This document shows positions 23,419 to 30,598 of a stretch of 43,230 nt of DNA, one piece after another. A program made the translations under genes and the position numbers. How positions within the stretch are numbered: position 1 is the first letter of the stretch; every line of letters starts with the position of its first letter. Origin of the DNA: an uncultured Holdemania sp. (lineage in GTDB: Bacteria > Bacillota_I > Bacilli_A > Erysipelotrichales > Erysipelotrichaceae); NCBI GenBank assembly GCA_947037125.1, contig CAMQTJ010000011.1, positions 1 through 43,230 of the forward strand. Direction: 5' to 3'. Below the pieces are notes generated by a model that was given only the letters and a program-made list of their open reading frames with translations, was not told the origin of the DNA and did no database searches.

Positions 23419-23467
23419 AATTCAATGTTATATTACATGACTATTGAATAATAATATTTATAACAAT

Positions 23468-23496
23468 AAAAAAAGCGAAGCATTGCGCTTAGCTTT
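23468..23496 (-). terminator. Terminator of the padR-DUF1700-microprotein unit
   Basis: On the minus strand, AAAGCTAAGC-gcaat-GCTTCGCTTT (one mismatch) is followed by a T run. It lies about 30 nt beyond the microprotein stop. Confidence 0.82.
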
Positions 23497-23526: not shown

Positions 23527-23610
23527 TTAACAAATCAGTGTGATAATTATTGATAATACAAATAAAGCTACAATGATTATTGCAATTGATTTATATGATT
23601 TTTCATCCAT
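23527..23610 (-). CDS. 27-residue hydrophobic membrane microprotein
   Basis: The peptide starts MDEKSYKS and continues as one hydrophobic helix (AIIIVALFVLSIIITL), ending in Ile-Cys. A good ribosome site (GTGAGGT) is 7 nt upstream of the ATG, and a terminator follows 30 nt after TAA. It aligns without gaps to the 29-residue peptide encoded at 29272-29361 (11 of 27 identical, with a shared EK near the N terminus and the pattern LFxxSxxIT). The two are paralogues. It lies 44 nt after the DUF1700 gene on the same strand and may be co-transcribed with it. I recognise no family, and the function is unknown. Confidence 0.7.
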   Translation of the reverse strand: MDEKSYKSIAIIIVALFVLSIIITLIC

Positions 23611-23654
23611 TATATTACCTCACTTTCCTTAATGATAATTGTGAATAGCAAATT

Positions 23655-25553
23655 TTATTTATTAAATGTAATATAATTACCAACTACATTTAATTTTTCG
23701 ATAACATTTTGATTCGCAATTACTTCAAACTGAATAAAATTTCCTGAATCCATTGATACTATTTTATTAGCTTTTAAAGCATCAAATTGAATTTTCATAA
23801 CACCTTGAACTTCAGCTAAAGTATTATATGCACTAAATTCATAAATTGATACCTCATATAAAGGTGCAATTATTTCTTCTGGTTCTAAAATTTCTTCATT
23901 CTCTTGATTATCATTCGAATTAATATCATATTCAGAACTTTCAAAATAATATGCATCTGTGTGTTTTATTCTAATAATAATTGAATCATCACTCATTGTT
24001 TCATCATTTGTTATTATTGTAGAGTTATGACCATAGCCTGTATGAATGCTATTTAATGACGCTACATCATAACTAAAATCGGTTGTTTGATAATCATTTT
24101 CATCAAAATATTCTTCATAATCAACTATTTCATAATTCAAAAATTCGATAAAACTGCATATTCCACCAAAACCAAAGATAGATGCCATTATACAAATAGA
24201 TATAAATGTTGTAAGGATTGATCCTTTTTTACCTAAAACTATTCGATATGTGAATTCTAATAAGATTACAATTCCAATAAAAATTGAAAACATAATAGCA
24301 GTTAATCCAAAAACACTAACACCTGATATTAATAGGCTGACACAAATCCCAAAACATACTGCCATTATAATTGCTAAGAAGACAAAAGGGATAGTACAAA
24401 GCATTGCGATAGATTTTGTACAAAATACAATAATAGATACAAGTAAACTACCTAAAGAATTGATGAATTGGCCAATGCTATTGTTTGATTTCTTTCTTAC
24501 TTTTGGTTCATTACTATTTAGCTTTTTAGATTGCTTTTGATCATATTTTGCATAATTAGTATCATCACCATTACTGCAATAATTTTGCTTATTCAAATCT
24601 AAATTTAATACATCTTCAGCACTTGAATCATCACTATGACTTGATGTAAAAGTATCTTGATCACCAAGTGAAAATTCATCAGAGGCTACGTTGTCATTCA
24701 TACCTTTATCGATATTATTTTTTTCTATGCATGATTCAGTTGGGTTTTTTTCTTTTGATTCACTTAGAAAATCATCGCCATTGATGTTATCAAGGTCGCT
24801 AAAATTATTGTTGCTATCATTGTTATCGCTGTTAATACCGTCATTATGATTGTTTCGCCTATTTTTTTTATTGAATTTATTACCATAATTATTTTCCTTT
24901 TTATTAGTAGGATTAATATCTTTTTTACCCTTATTGAAGTATTTAGTAACAAAATCGAAATCACTATTTTCACCATCATTTTGACCTGTGATTGATTTAT
25001 AGATACCGATAATAACGATAATTAATATTAATAAGTAAGCCAAGCACGTAAATACCGTCCATACATCACAAAGTACATAACTAATTGAAGAAGGCAAAGC
25101 AATTGAGATAAGTGAATGCCCAATACCTTTAACTAAGTAAAATGGTATTTGCATAAGTGCAATAATAATAAGCACTACAAATATTGAAACGATAACTTTC
25201 GCGATATTATCAATAGATATATTTTTTTCAAAAGAAAATCCGTCAAGAAATTCAACAATACTCTCAATTGCTTTTTTAACTAGTTCAACGATATCATCAA
25301 TTACATCACCAAATTTTGATGATGTGTTTGACTCAGGCTCCTTATAGTTTGATTTAACTTTATAGGCACTAAGGATTTCCTTTGCAAATTCATCAATATC
25401 ACCAAAATCTAAAACAGCATTTTCTTCACTGATACCTTCAGAAATTTTTTCGTCGATACAATCAGAATACTCGTTAATGATATCATCAATTTCGTCATCC
25501 CTTAATATATCTAATTTTGATCTAAGTTGAATTAAAAATTCATTTTTTGTCAT
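23655..25553 (-). CDS. DUF1700/HAAS-domain multi-pass membrane protein
   Basis: This 632-residue protein starts with an HAAS/DUF1700 domain (residues 1-66, e.g. MTKNEFLIQLRSKL, INEYSDCI, FGDIDEFAKEIL). After it come two to three membrane segments (about 115-187), a long Asn/Asp/Ser-rich low-complexity linker (about 190-330), a second hydrophobic cluster of about four helices (about 360-470), and an acidic exported C-terminal region. It lies 1 nt after a PadR regulator, the usual pairing for this family, in which the HAAS protein is thought to relay a membrane signal. The linker and the second membrane block are unlike the short two-helix members I know of. Confidence 0.8.
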   Translation of the reverse strand: MTKNEFLIQLRSKLDILRDDEIDDIINEYSDCIDEKISEGISEENAVLDFGDIDEFAKEILSAYKVKSNYKEPESNTSSKFGDVIDDIVELVKKAIESIVEFLDGFSFEKNISIDNIAKVIVSIFVVLIIIALMQIPFYLVKGIGHSLISIALPSSISYVLCDVWTVFTCLAYLLILIIVIIGIYKSITGQNDGENSDFDFVTKYFNKGKKDINPTNKKENNYGNKFNKKNRRNNHNDGINSDNNDSNNNFSDLDNINGDDFLSESKEKNPTESCIEKNNIDKGMNDNVASDEFSLGDQDTFTSSHSDDSSAEDVLNLDLNKQNYCSNGDDTNYAKYDQKQSKKLNSNEPKVRKKSNNSIGQFINSLGSLLVSIIVFCTKSIAMLCTIPFVFLAIIMAVCFGICVSLLISGVSVFGLTAIMFSIFIGIVILLEFTYRIVLGKKGSILTTFISICIMASIFGFGGICSFIEFLNYEIVDYEEYFDENDYQTTDFSYDVASLNSIHTGYGHNSTIITNDETMSDDSIIIRIKHTDAYYFESSEYDINSNDNQENEEILEPEEIIAPLYEVSIYEFSAYNTLAEVQGVMKIQFDALKANKIVSMDSGNFIQFEVIANQNVIEKLNVVGNYITFNK

Positions 25554-25554
25554 A

Positions 25555-25872
25555 TTAATTATCTCCCTTATTTATAAATGTGTTTATTTGATTACTAAAT
25601 TCCAACCAATCTTTTTTCAAAGCCATCATAGCTAATAAACCATTTGCTGTGATGTGATAATATTTTCTTGGTGGACCCTCAGTTGATTCTTGTAAGTATG
25701 TTTCAAAATAACTTTCGTTTGTCATACGTTTAAGTAACGGGTAGATAGTACCTTCATTTACTTGTACTACTTCACAGACTTTTTTGACTAATTCATAGCC
25801 ATAAATATCTTTTTCACTTACGACGATCATTACTATTAATTCTAAAACACCTTTTTTAAATTGTGTATTCAT
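25555..25872 (-). CDS. PadR-family transcriptional regulator
   Basis: I start at the ATG complementary to 25870-25872 (105 aa), which is preceded by GGGTGATGAG and gives the usual PadR N terminus (MNTQFKKGVLELIVM). An open frame extends upstream but runs through the promoter. The winged helix is seen in DIYGYELVKK, VNEGTIYPLLKRM and GPPRKYYHITANG. PadR proteins usually repress their own unit and the membrane protein coupled to it. The DUF1700 gene follows after 1 nt. Confidence 0.93.
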   Translation of the reverse strand: MNTQFKKGVLELIVMIVVSEKDIYGYELVKKVCEVVQVNEGTIYPLLKRMTNESYFETYLQESTEGPPRKYYHITANGLLAMMALKKDWLEFSNQINTFINKGDN

Positions 25873-25888
25873 CTCATCACCCAATATA

Positions 25889-25917
25889 ATACTATACCTA
25901 CTACTATGTTTTGTCAA
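25889..25917 (-). promoter_or_regulatory. Sigma-A-type promoter of padR-DUF1700
   Basis: On the minus strand there is a consensus -35 TTGACA (25912-25917). The -10 is TAGTAT (25889-25894, spacing 17) or TATAGT (25891-25896, spacing 15). The spacer holds repeated TAGTA units. It is the only consensus -35 I noticed in the window. Confidence 0.65.
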
Positions 25918-25941
25918 GTACTGTAATAAAAAAATAGTAAT

Positions 25942-25969
25942 AAAAAAGATTAACGTTAAGTTAACCTTT
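25942..25969 (-). terminator. Terminator overlapping the stop of the small membrane protein gene
   Basis: On the minus strand, AAAGGTTAAC-ttaac-GTTAATCTTT (one G-T pair) is followed by T residues. The stop codon (25961-25963) is inside the stem. Confidence 0.82.
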
Positions 25970-26272
25970 AGAATCGATGAATTTTTGTTTGTGATAGGCA
26001 CCTATAAGATTCGCAATTAAACATATGCAACCATAGATAATTCCATAAGACATTGCGGTGTAATTAAAATGAATGAATAATGTACTCCAAAATAAAATAC
26101 AGGAAACAATAGGTAAGATGTAATCAAAGCCAGAACGACTCCCTGAAATATAACCAATTGTTGCATTTAAAAAGGGGAATACCAAAAAGAGTAGTAGTAT
26201 AAAATAAAACATATTAATTTTGAAAAAAGGTAAAGTAAAATAAGTTATTAGTAAAATTATATATTTAAGCAT
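25961..26272 (-). CDS. Small membrane protein of unknown function
   Basis: This 103-residue protein has about four hydrophobic segments (IILLITYFTLPFF, MFYFILLLFLVFPFL, ILPIVSCILFWSTLFI, and GIIYGCICLIANLIGAY). I recognise no family. The ATG overlaps the stop of the YigZ-family gene (TAATG), so it is translationally coupled to it. It ends at its own terminator. Confidence 0.72.
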   Translation of the reverse strand: MLKYIILLITYFTLPFFKINMFYFILLLFLVFPFLNATIGYISGSRSGFDYILPIVSCILFWSTLFIHFNYTAMSYGIIYGCICLIANLIGAYHKQKFIDSKG

Positions 26273-27212: not shown

Positions 27213-28010
27213 ATGCAAAAAGTACATAAAAAAAATCATAATGGCAATAATCAAAATAAAATGATGATATCAATAATTCTATTGTGTGCATGTATTACAC
27301 TAATTTGCTACATTACAACACTAGATTTTGATAGTTATACAGATAATAATGATAGTTTAAATAACAATGGTGAAATAGCAACAGCTACACCACAAACAAG
27401 TGTTACACCTACAATAGAACCGACTATAGGACCTACAATTAATACTGATGCTTGGAATCTTATAATTGCGAATCCATGGAATAAGTTGCCTGATGATTTT
27501 AGTGTTGAACTAACTAAGTTATCAAATGGGCACTATATAGATGAAAGAGCATATGAAGATCTTCAAAATATGTTTGATGATGCAAGAGCTGAAGGATTAT
27601 CACCATTTATTTGTTCTTCTTTTAGGTCAAATGAAAAACAAGAAAAGCTGTATAATAACCTTGTAAATAAGTATATTAAACAAGGTGATAGTGAGGAAGC
27701 TGCAAAAACAAGGGCAGCTACACTAATAGCAGTTCCTAAAACTAGCGAACACCAAACAGGACTTACTTTAGATATCGTTGCTAAAAGCTATCAACAATTA
27801 AACACAGAACAAGAAAATACTGATGAACAAAAGTGGTTAAAAGAAAATTCATATAAATACGGTTTTATTTTAAGATATCCAAGTGATAAAAGTGACATTA
27901 CGGGCATTGTATATGAACCTTGGCATTATCGCTATGTAGGAATAGAGGCAGCGAAAGTGATCAATGATGAGTTACTTTGTTTAGAAGAATATCTAGATAA
28001 AGCTAACTAA
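27213..28010 (+). CDS. Membrane-anchored D-alanyl-D-alanine carboxypeptidase (VanY-type)
   Basis: This 265-residue protein has a basic N terminus, one membrane helix (about residues 18-36) and a Thr/Pro-rich linker (about 55-76). The extracytoplasmic LAS/VanY peptidase follows. Zinc ligands and the catalytic base are readable: H180 and D187 in SEHQTGLTLD, E235 and H238 in EPWHYRYVG, and the substrate loop CSSFRS. It trims the terminal D-Ala of peptidoglycan stem peptides. No vanA/H/X genes are near, so this is a wall-maintenance enzyme and not a resistance cluster. The start follows AAAGGAG. Confidence 0.93.
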   Translation: MQKVHKKNHNGNNQNKMMISIILLCACITLICYITTLDFDSYTDNNDSLNNNGEIATATPQTSVTPTIEPTIGPTINTDAWNLIIANPWNKLPDDFSVELTKLSNGHYIDERAYEDLQNMFDDARAEGLSPFICSSFRSNEKQEKLYNNLVNKYIKQGDSEEAAKTRAATLIAVPKTSEHQTGLTLDIVAKSYQQLNTEQENTDEQKWLKENSYKYGFILRYPSDKSDITGIVYEPWHYRYVGIEAAKVINDELLCLEEYLDKAN

Positions 28011-29231: not shown

Positions 29232-29262
29232 AAAAGAGCTTTCTATAAAGAAAGCTCTTTTT
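29232..29262. terminator. Bidirectional terminator between the PNPOx-like gene and the 29-residue microprotein gene
   Basis: A perfect 12-bp stem (AAAAGAGCTTTC / GAAAGCTCTTTT) with a 6-nt loop has A residues on one side and T residues on the other, so it serves both strands. Confidence 0.9.
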
Positions 29263-29271
29263 GTAACAATA

Positions 29272-29361
29272 TTAAGCACCTTTTAAAAGTGTGATTAATA
29301 CCGATATTGTAAAAAGTGAAATTATTAAAATAATAGCTTTATTGTTTGTTTTTTCCTTCAT
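29272..29361 (-). CDS. 29-residue hydrophobic membrane microprotein, paralogue of the one at 23527
   Basis: The peptide starts MKEKTNNK and continues as one hydrophobic helix (AIILIISLFTISVLITLL), ending Lys-Gly-Ala. A purine-rich ribosome site (AGGAAGAGAG) precedes the ATG on the minus strand, and a strong terminator begins 10 nt after TAA. Its similarity to the 27-residue peptide is gap-free, which supports both as real genes. It stands alone between converging and diverging neighbours, so it has its own promoter; a TTGTTT / TACATT pair with 16-nt spacing lies just upstream. The function is unknown. Confidence 0.7.
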   Translation of the reverse strand: MKEKTNNKAIILIISLFTISVLITLLKGA

Positions 29362-29521
29362 ATTGAATCTCTCTTCCTATTTTTATAATGTATAATCTTA
29401 TTATATATAAACAACACAAAAGGTGTACCTAATAGATTATAGACAAAAATATTTTATACATACAAAAAAAGACAAGAACATATAATATTTTCTTTTCTTT
29501 TGATTCCAATAAGAATTTCTA
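29362..29521. other. Intergenic region downstream of the lipoprotein gene
   Basis: This holds the promoter region of the 29-residue microprotein and the 3' flank of the minus-strand lipoprotein gene. A weak 5-bp hairpin with a T run on the minus strand (around 29466-29500) could end the lipoprotein transcript. Nothing else is visible. Confidence 0.4.
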
Positions 29522-30598
29522 TTATGGAATATAGTGAGCGGCTAAAACATTTTCTTGATCATCTTTAAACTGATATTTGAAATCAAGATATTCTTTTGTT
29601 TCTACATCGTAGAAACTAATAAATTCATTACTCTTTGAATCTCTTTGATATAATGTGACAACGTTTGTATCGTTGGTATTTTCAATAGTTGAAAAATCAT
29701 CATCAATTGTTTCCTCAAGTAGTATAGAAGTTAATATATCATCAGTAATAGTATCTAAATAAAGTTTATTTCCATTATCACTATAATTACTTCTTAAATA
29801 ACTATCGCCATATCTTTCGATTTTATAATTTGTTACATTATTTTCAACTTCAATAACATTTGTTATATCTTTTGGATATTGGTAATATCCATCGTTTCTT
29901 TCAAAGATTAATTCATTATTATCATATGAAAGTATTTTATTTGCTGAACCAACATTAACCTCATTGATGATATTAAAATCTAAATCTAATGTAACAAGGT
30001 TAGAATTATCCATACCATAACCTTCTAATATGTTAATCTCATTATCGACAAGGATTAAATCTAAAATGTTTTCATGATTAGGAATACAAGAATAATCATC
30101 TTGATCATAAGTATTTTTGTCTGTAAAATCTAGATAACATACACTGTTATTAGCACTTGTATCGTCAGTAACTTTTTGACCATTATGATATGAAACATCA
30201 TCAACCTTACTACTTCCACCTATAATAAAGGCCATTGATTTTTCATTCATGGATGTTATATCAATACTATTAAAGGAATCAAGTGTAGCGATTGTTGTAA
30301 TTTCACCTGTTACTAAATTTATTAAAATATTGGTATTATCACCAAGGATTGATACTACATTATTAGAATAGCTAGAATGCCATGGGGTGTTTTCATTATC
30401 GATAACTATTTCTTCAACTAATGTACTATCTTTATTATAAGTTGAAATATTGATTTTTGTAGCAAATAAGCTATCTGAACCTGAAACAATGATATAATCA
30501 CCTAATTCAATATGGGTTGGAACAGGCTTATACTCACTTGCACAGCCAATTAATAGTAAACATATTGCAAGGGTAAATAATTGTCTAATTAATTTCAT
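29522..30598 (-). CDS. Lipoprotein of unknown function, possibly beta-propeller
   Basis: This 358-residue protein has a lipoprotein signal with lipobox LIGC (Cys19). The mature part is a run of strand-turn-strand segments with repeated Asp/Asn-rich turns (e.g. DYIIVSGSDS, VVSILGDNTN, MAFIIGGSSK, INILEGYGMD, NELIFERNDG, KLYLDTITDD). This suggests a repeat fold such as a beta-propeller. No family is recognised. It is monocistronic with its own extended -10 promoter. The ribosome site is GGTGGT. Confidence 0.75.
   Translation of the reverse strand: MKLIRQLFTLAICLLLIGCASEYKPVPTHIELGDYIIVSGSDSLFATKINISTYNKDSTLVEEIVIDNENTPWHSSYSNNVVSILGDNTNILINLVTGEITTIATLDSFNSIDITSMNEKSMAFIIGGSSKVDDVSYHNGQKVTDDTSANNSVCYLDFTDKNTYDQDDYSCIPNHENILDLILVDNEINILEGYGMDNSNLVTLDLDFNIINEVNVGSANKILSYDNNELIFERNDGYYQYPKDITNVIEVENNVTNYKIERYGDSYLRSNYSDNGNKLYLDTITDDILTSILLEETIDDDFSTIENTNDTNVVTLYQRDSKSNEFISFYDVETKEYLDFKYQFKDDQENVLAAHYIP

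Follow-up and report, generated by a model that had tools for sequence, protein, structure and literature searches.

A probable genus-restricted family of single-pass membrane microproteins beside envelope-signalling genes in an uncultured Holdemania

Sensors and transporters are known to be regulated by membrane proteins as small as about 30 residues, the origins of which are hard to trace. Connectors of the MgrB and SafA type are enterobacterial, and in Firmicutes a link to stress signalling is known for Prli42, a very small membrane miniprotein of Listeria. MgrB is a small single-pass membrane peptide that tunes the sensor kinase PhoQ (PMC10576120), and VraH of S. aureus is a small transmembrane (TM) protein made with an FtsX-type-permease ABC transporter under a two-component system and present in a duplicated form, VraH2 (PMC6291627, PMC5786555). 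YohP of E. coli has been proposed to be a free-standing, membrane-acting stress peptide (PMC12719787). On the scale of whole signalling units, PMC11237479 proposes that, in the signalling of membrane stress, HAAS-PadR pairs serve as an alternative to two-component systems. Here we compare with these systems a set of small open reading frames (ORFs), c1 to c5, from an uncultured Holdemania sp., a gut bacterium. We put at roughly 0.55 the probability that c1 is a genuine gene and belongs to a genus-restricted family of 27- to 32-residue single-pass microproteins, probable accessory subunits in the response to envelope stress.

Two of the copies lie on the minus strand of the window, the whole stretch of 43,230 nt that was analyzed. 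Copy c1 (23527..23610; 27 aa, MDEKSYKSIAIIIVALFVLSIIITLIC) reads as the first-pass annotation had claimed, from an ATG preceded at 6 nt by the Shine-Dalgarno (SD) sequence GTGAGGT (23617..23623, minus strand); the same site, AAAGTGAGGT, occurs in copy c4. The terminator announced 30 nt past the c1 stop codon is present as a stem (23496-23472) with a T run (together 23464..23496, minus strand), and is modest by folding (z -1.2). Copy c2 (29272..29361; 29 aa, MKEKTNNKAIILIISLFTISVLITLLKGA), supported by the genome search, the background scan and the shuffle test alike, has an SD-like sequence, AGGAAGAGAG (29369..29378, minus strand), and is followed by a strong terminator with a 13-bp stem (29232..29261, minus strand; fold z -5.3). 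On the same strand, 160 nt upstream of c2, lies a gene for a 358-aa putative lipoprotein (29522..30598), which has a lipobox-like LLIGC by eye and no Pfam family above the cut-off. Between c2 and the PadR-HAAS unit described below sits another putative envelope gene (27213-28010; 265 aa), which reads by eye like a membrane-anchored VanY-type D-Ala-D-Ala carboxypeptidase. Gap-free alignment of c1 with c2 gave the 11 identities of 27 noted at first pass, the initiator methionine included (10 of 26 without it). It had been feared that hydrophobic residues inflate this score; when the polar or charged N-terminus and the hydrophobic part were shuffled separately, the P values were 1e-4 (score) and 0.004 (identity), so that hydrophobicity alone is no sufficient explanation.

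Routine gene annotation passes over proteins as short as these, of about 30 residues. With c1 as the only query, a six-frame search of the host genome gave three additional matches over the full length, c2, c3 (MDRKSYKDLGQLTVVLMLMSIIISIIFI, contig C95) and c4 (MDESNTKSIFMGIFFLFVLAVIVTYLKNTMM, contig C41), and in each the match begins precisely at an ATG that has an SD sequence. In a background scan of 4,256 ATG ORFs of 20 to 40 codons in 859 kb of host genome (made up of the window, parts of C41 and C95, and 20 kb from the start of each of 40 further contigs), c3, c2 and c4 scored 59, 53 and 51 against c1, and the next best ORF scored 28. The scan also yielded a fifth copy, c5 (MCANDIKSIGKKFVFMFLLTIITIIIKSVMLI, L084:7918-7820, with a TTGGAGGTGATGATATG start and a terminator after it), which scored 42 against c4, where no ORF from outside the family exceeded 26. 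The host carries at least five such ORFs of 27 to 32 aa, each with an ATG, an SD sequence and one TM segment, five being a lower bound because about a third of the draft genome was read as stretches. The earlier proposal of two paralogs forming a real family of single-pass peptides is thus supported as to the family, which has at least five paralogs here and orthologs of one of them in two other species, and corrected as to the number.

Chance reading frames, alike only through AT-rich, hydrophobic composition, would be compatible with the 27 codons of c1, its AT-rich DNA and the lack of a c1 ortholog at its own locus, yet the segment-wise shuffles, the background scan and a control search of other genomes make this reading very improbable. 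Across 300 segment-wise shuffles of c1, one gave a single match of 59, and the third-best score never exceeded 32, so that the real third-best score of 51 was reached in none; c1 run against 195 other genomes of the bacterial family found one equally strong match, inside a 308-aa frame. That there are at least five copies, one of them at the front of a conserved envelope-stress operon, also makes the window pair look like real family members rather than chance frames. Taken together, all the copies have little in common apart from a helix. The similarities of c2 to c3 and of c3 to c4 were not significant by segment-wise shuffling, the C-terminal ends vary (IC, LKGA, IFI, LKNTMM and KSVMLI), and some resemblance among short hydrophobic peptides could be convergent. 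The comparison of synonymous with nonsynonymous changes suggested at first pass was uninformative at such divergence; second codon positions did change least in every pair counted, an effect to which hydrophobic composition alone contributes a part. Profile E-values of the family members themselves are circular and were not counted as evidence. Three further matches were discarded: two DNA matches to the c1 region judged to be due to chance, one (70%, in G000:C32) being a prepilin-like N-terminus and the other (C7) lying inside a histidine-kinase-like gene, and a match in G000:C8 (E = 8e-4), which falls on a helix inside a 379-aa membrane protein.

Length, hydrophobicity and several copies in one genome are also what hydrophobic type I toxin-like peptides of the Fst, TxpA or Ldr kind would show, multiplied and checked by antisense RNA, and in four of the five copies a terminator comes immediately behind the gene, those of c2, c3 and c5 being strong (fold z -4.0 to -5.3). 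We nevertheless consider toxins unlikely: no Rfam antitoxin RNA was found near either window copy, no PADLOC or PHROG family was assigned (phrog_5315 matched only at E = 0.057), promoter-like sites were not in excess (61 found against 65 expected), and in three species c4 holds the same leading position in an operon.

Upstream of c1, the PadR-DUF1700 unit named at first pass was confirmed by Pfam for both domains. A 632-aa multi-TM protein (23655..25553, minus strand), with homologs in the bacterial family, carries an N-terminal HAAS (DUF1700-type) domain (PF22564, 37.5 bits; cut-off, 27), and hydrophobic segments are evident in its sequence; it is preceded by a gene for a PadR-family regulator (25555..25872, minus strand; PF03551, 63.4 bits; cut-off, 27), whose start at MNTQFKKGVLEL is placed from relatives. 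The longest padR ORF (25555-26001) is over-extended, relatives beginning at MN(S/P)QFKKGVL, which corresponds to 25872 here. The arrangement is that of a HAAS-PadR dyad, a HAAS domain fused to TM segments and adjoining a standalone PadR-like winged helix-turn-helix protein. From the stop codon of the HAAS gene to c1 there are 44 nt without an intervening terminator. In three relatives the order is PadR, DUF1700 (in one of them), a GNAT-like acetyltransferase and AddB, so that c1 occupies the place that the acetyltransferase holds in relatives. No c1 ortholog was found at this locus in the relatives, and no similar small ORF was found downstream of DUF1700 genes in other genera of the bacterial family. 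In genome G003 the PadR-DUF1700-GNAT-AddB region occurs twice, on contigs C2 and C66, probably as an assembly duplicate.

The search for homologs in relatives, unsuccessful for c1 at its own locus, succeeded for c4, with orthologs in two other species. In the host, c4 opens an operon that continues with a response regulator (RR), a histidine kinase (HK), a PASTA protein, an FtsX/MacB-type permease and an ATPase, and the same six-gene order, microprotein first, runs through the ATPase in G003. A profile search of relatives found a c4 ortholog in G002, a member of the same genus (MAKTRNKDVWIGLLFFALLAVLVTFLKNQLIG), and a search with the regulator found one in G003 (MIKKQIRKIFPGVLCLILLLIEVTLLKNQMLG), each directly upstream of the orthologous RR; the G002 contig is too short to display the whole operon. 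All three genomes of the genus with this operon have the microprotein between the promoter and the RR-HK(-PASTA-FtsX-ATPase) genes. The three peptides share an LKN tail, and their pairwise identities are 11 to 12 of 30 to 31 (P about 1e-4 or less by segment-wise shuffles), c4 matching each ortholog at 11 of 30. The first-pass hint of membrane-stress signalling gains support from these orthologs at the front of a two-component/PASTA/FtsX-ABC operon, a role that we infer from position. Outside the genus, no family member was found in 273 Erysipelotrichaceae genomes. Profile matches there (E = 1e-4 to 0.01) lay mostly in larger frames, the short ones inspected having no ATG with an SD sequence, and the single-peptide matches inspected in other genomes likewise lacked an ATG with an SD sequence or were parts of larger ORFs.

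In the host, a 466- to 481-aa multi-TM protein without a Pfam family (L084 6222-7667) lies between c5 and c4, and UvrB takes its place upstream of the operon in G003. Another microprotein ahead of an RR, unlike those described here, occurs in two genomes of genus g37 (L100 and L101): an ORF of 39 aa with a single TM segment (MLPNNEVFEMLRNYRIHLLIIEFGIIFILFIMSMKRKRV, with a nearly identical copy in the second genome) lies just upstream of the regulator, with an AGGAGG and a stop codon overlapping the regulator start.

Because c4 and its orthologs end 10 to 36 nt before the RR, the small ORF might be a leader peptide or translational coupler, in which the act of translation, rather than the peptide, controls the downstream operon. 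The amino acid sequence is, however, kept between species, and c1, c2, c3 and c5 are followed by terminators, which leave nothing downstream for a leader to control; we regard such a role as quite improbable.

Upstream of the microprotein, a box with the sequence CTAACT-N5-CTAACT occurs exactly once per genome in all three genomes, and only there; in genome G001 the box is absent, and the regulator search found no close RR ortholog. The repeats, spaced 11 bp apart and adjoining a -10-like element, resemble the site of an OmpR-type activator. The box was sought near c1, c2 and c3 and was absent, which indicates that these copies are not under the same promoter as c4. Two outgroup genera, g69 and g57 (two genomes each), have the whole five-gene operon with an RR 50 to 58% identical, and a similar box, with one mismatch in three of the genomes and three mismatches in the fourth, ends 22 nt short of the RR start codon; these operons hold no microprotein, and there is no room for one between box and RR. 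In the 60 nt upstream of the RR at the four loci (L090-L093), the RR start codon follows a few bases after a -10-like element without an SD sequence, which suggests a leaderless mRNA, unlike in the host genus. Since two other genera have the operon and a similar box without the microprotein, its gain in this genus is the simplest reading, and the gene was probably added between promoter and regulator in an ancestor of the genus; loss in the other genera is possible and would need more events. Copy c1 is more similar to c4 (12 of 26 identities) than to the c4 orthologs (4 of 26 and 7 of 26), which fits copying of c1 within the host lineage.

The other copies have varied neighbors. Copy c3 is downstream of the gene for a 124-aa TM protein, with a PLD-family protein and a BrkB protein nearby, c5 is near a contig end, and neither these two nor c2, after its lipoprotein gene, adjoins a sensor kinase or HAAS protein. 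Such diversity, together with the slight conservation beyond a helix, would suit a free-standing membrane-acting stress peptide that has no specific partner and alters the membrane or metabolic state. The fixed operon place of c4 and the position of c1 beside the HAAS protein suggest specific partners instead, and we think a free-standing peptide rather unlikely.

The two copies with informative neighbors, c1 and c4, adjoin two kinds of membrane signalling unit, and the proposal that HAAS-PadR pairs are an alternative to two-component systems (PMC11237479) links these contexts; no partner domain is shared between them. The comparison supports a history in which the family, newly arisen or acquired, began as an additional gene at the head of the RR-HK-PASTA-FtsX-ATPase operon, between the unique direct-repeat box and the regulator, and then multiplied to at least five copies in the host species, one of them coming to lie right after the HAAS-PadR pair. 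Each peptide would consist of one membrane helix, a short N-terminus that carries charge and hardly anything else, which leaves action only via the membrane or a partner. The most likely role, judged from sequence and gene order, would be that of an accessory membrane subunit that tunes envelope-stress sensors by binding a membrane partner made from the same transcript. For c1 this partner may be the HAAS membrane protein; for c4 it may be the sensor kinase or the FtsX-type permease, with the PASTA protein as a further candidate, and the conserved co-operon position favors a partner among these three. As the repeats resemble an OmpR-type activator site, the level of the c4 peptide would increase on activation, and the peptide could thereby feed back on envelope-stress signalling. 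More tentatively, a membrane gene of about 30 codons, born in or inserted into the leader between box and RR, might have become a modular membrane-stress tuner that was copied in one species to other membrane loci, including the HAAS-PadR pair, so that one family would connect two signalling architectures.

Genera with and without the gene are available here for comparison: in two of them the five-gene operon and a similar box occur without the microprotein, and in one the microprotein is present. Together with the later multiplication in one species, this opens to testing how a microprotein gene was born and recruited, and predicts that one membrane-helix family partners with a two-component system as well as with a HAAS-PadR pair.

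Neither Pfam, NCBIfam, PHROGs nor PADLOC has a family that matches the microproteins above curated cut-offs. VraH is the closest analogue in context, c4 being in an operon with RR, HK, PASTA, FtsX and ATPase genes, but it fails in score and motif. Against the VraH model NF033835 (54 positions), c1 reaches 17.2 bits with a cut-off of 40 bits and c2 to c4 do not match; nothing in the genus exceeds the cut-off, and sub-threshold matches also occur in 11 of 14 control genomes. The positively charged C-terminal YYKRREEKGK motif of VraH (PMC5786555) is absent from the family members here, vraH is one of the vraDEH transporter genes whereas c4 stands ahead of a regulator, and no such operon was seen at c1 or c2. 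Prli42 differs too, with no NCBIfam match of its kind at E<=1 and no stressosome gene noticed nearby. The likeness to MgrB and SafA is one of form, a small single-pass peptide, and of the operon position of c4, with no sequence relation apparent; c4 would be made with the kinase, and its position suggests a possible contact. For c1 the closest comparison is the HAAS-PadR dyad (PMC11237479), including the lltR operon of Listeria (PMC6624303), in which the same two genes appear as upstream of c1. The passages on the dyad in these two papers mention no microprotein; the Listeria lltR unit (PMC6624303) continues with a DUF4097 exoprotein, whereas the unit in the window continues with c1.
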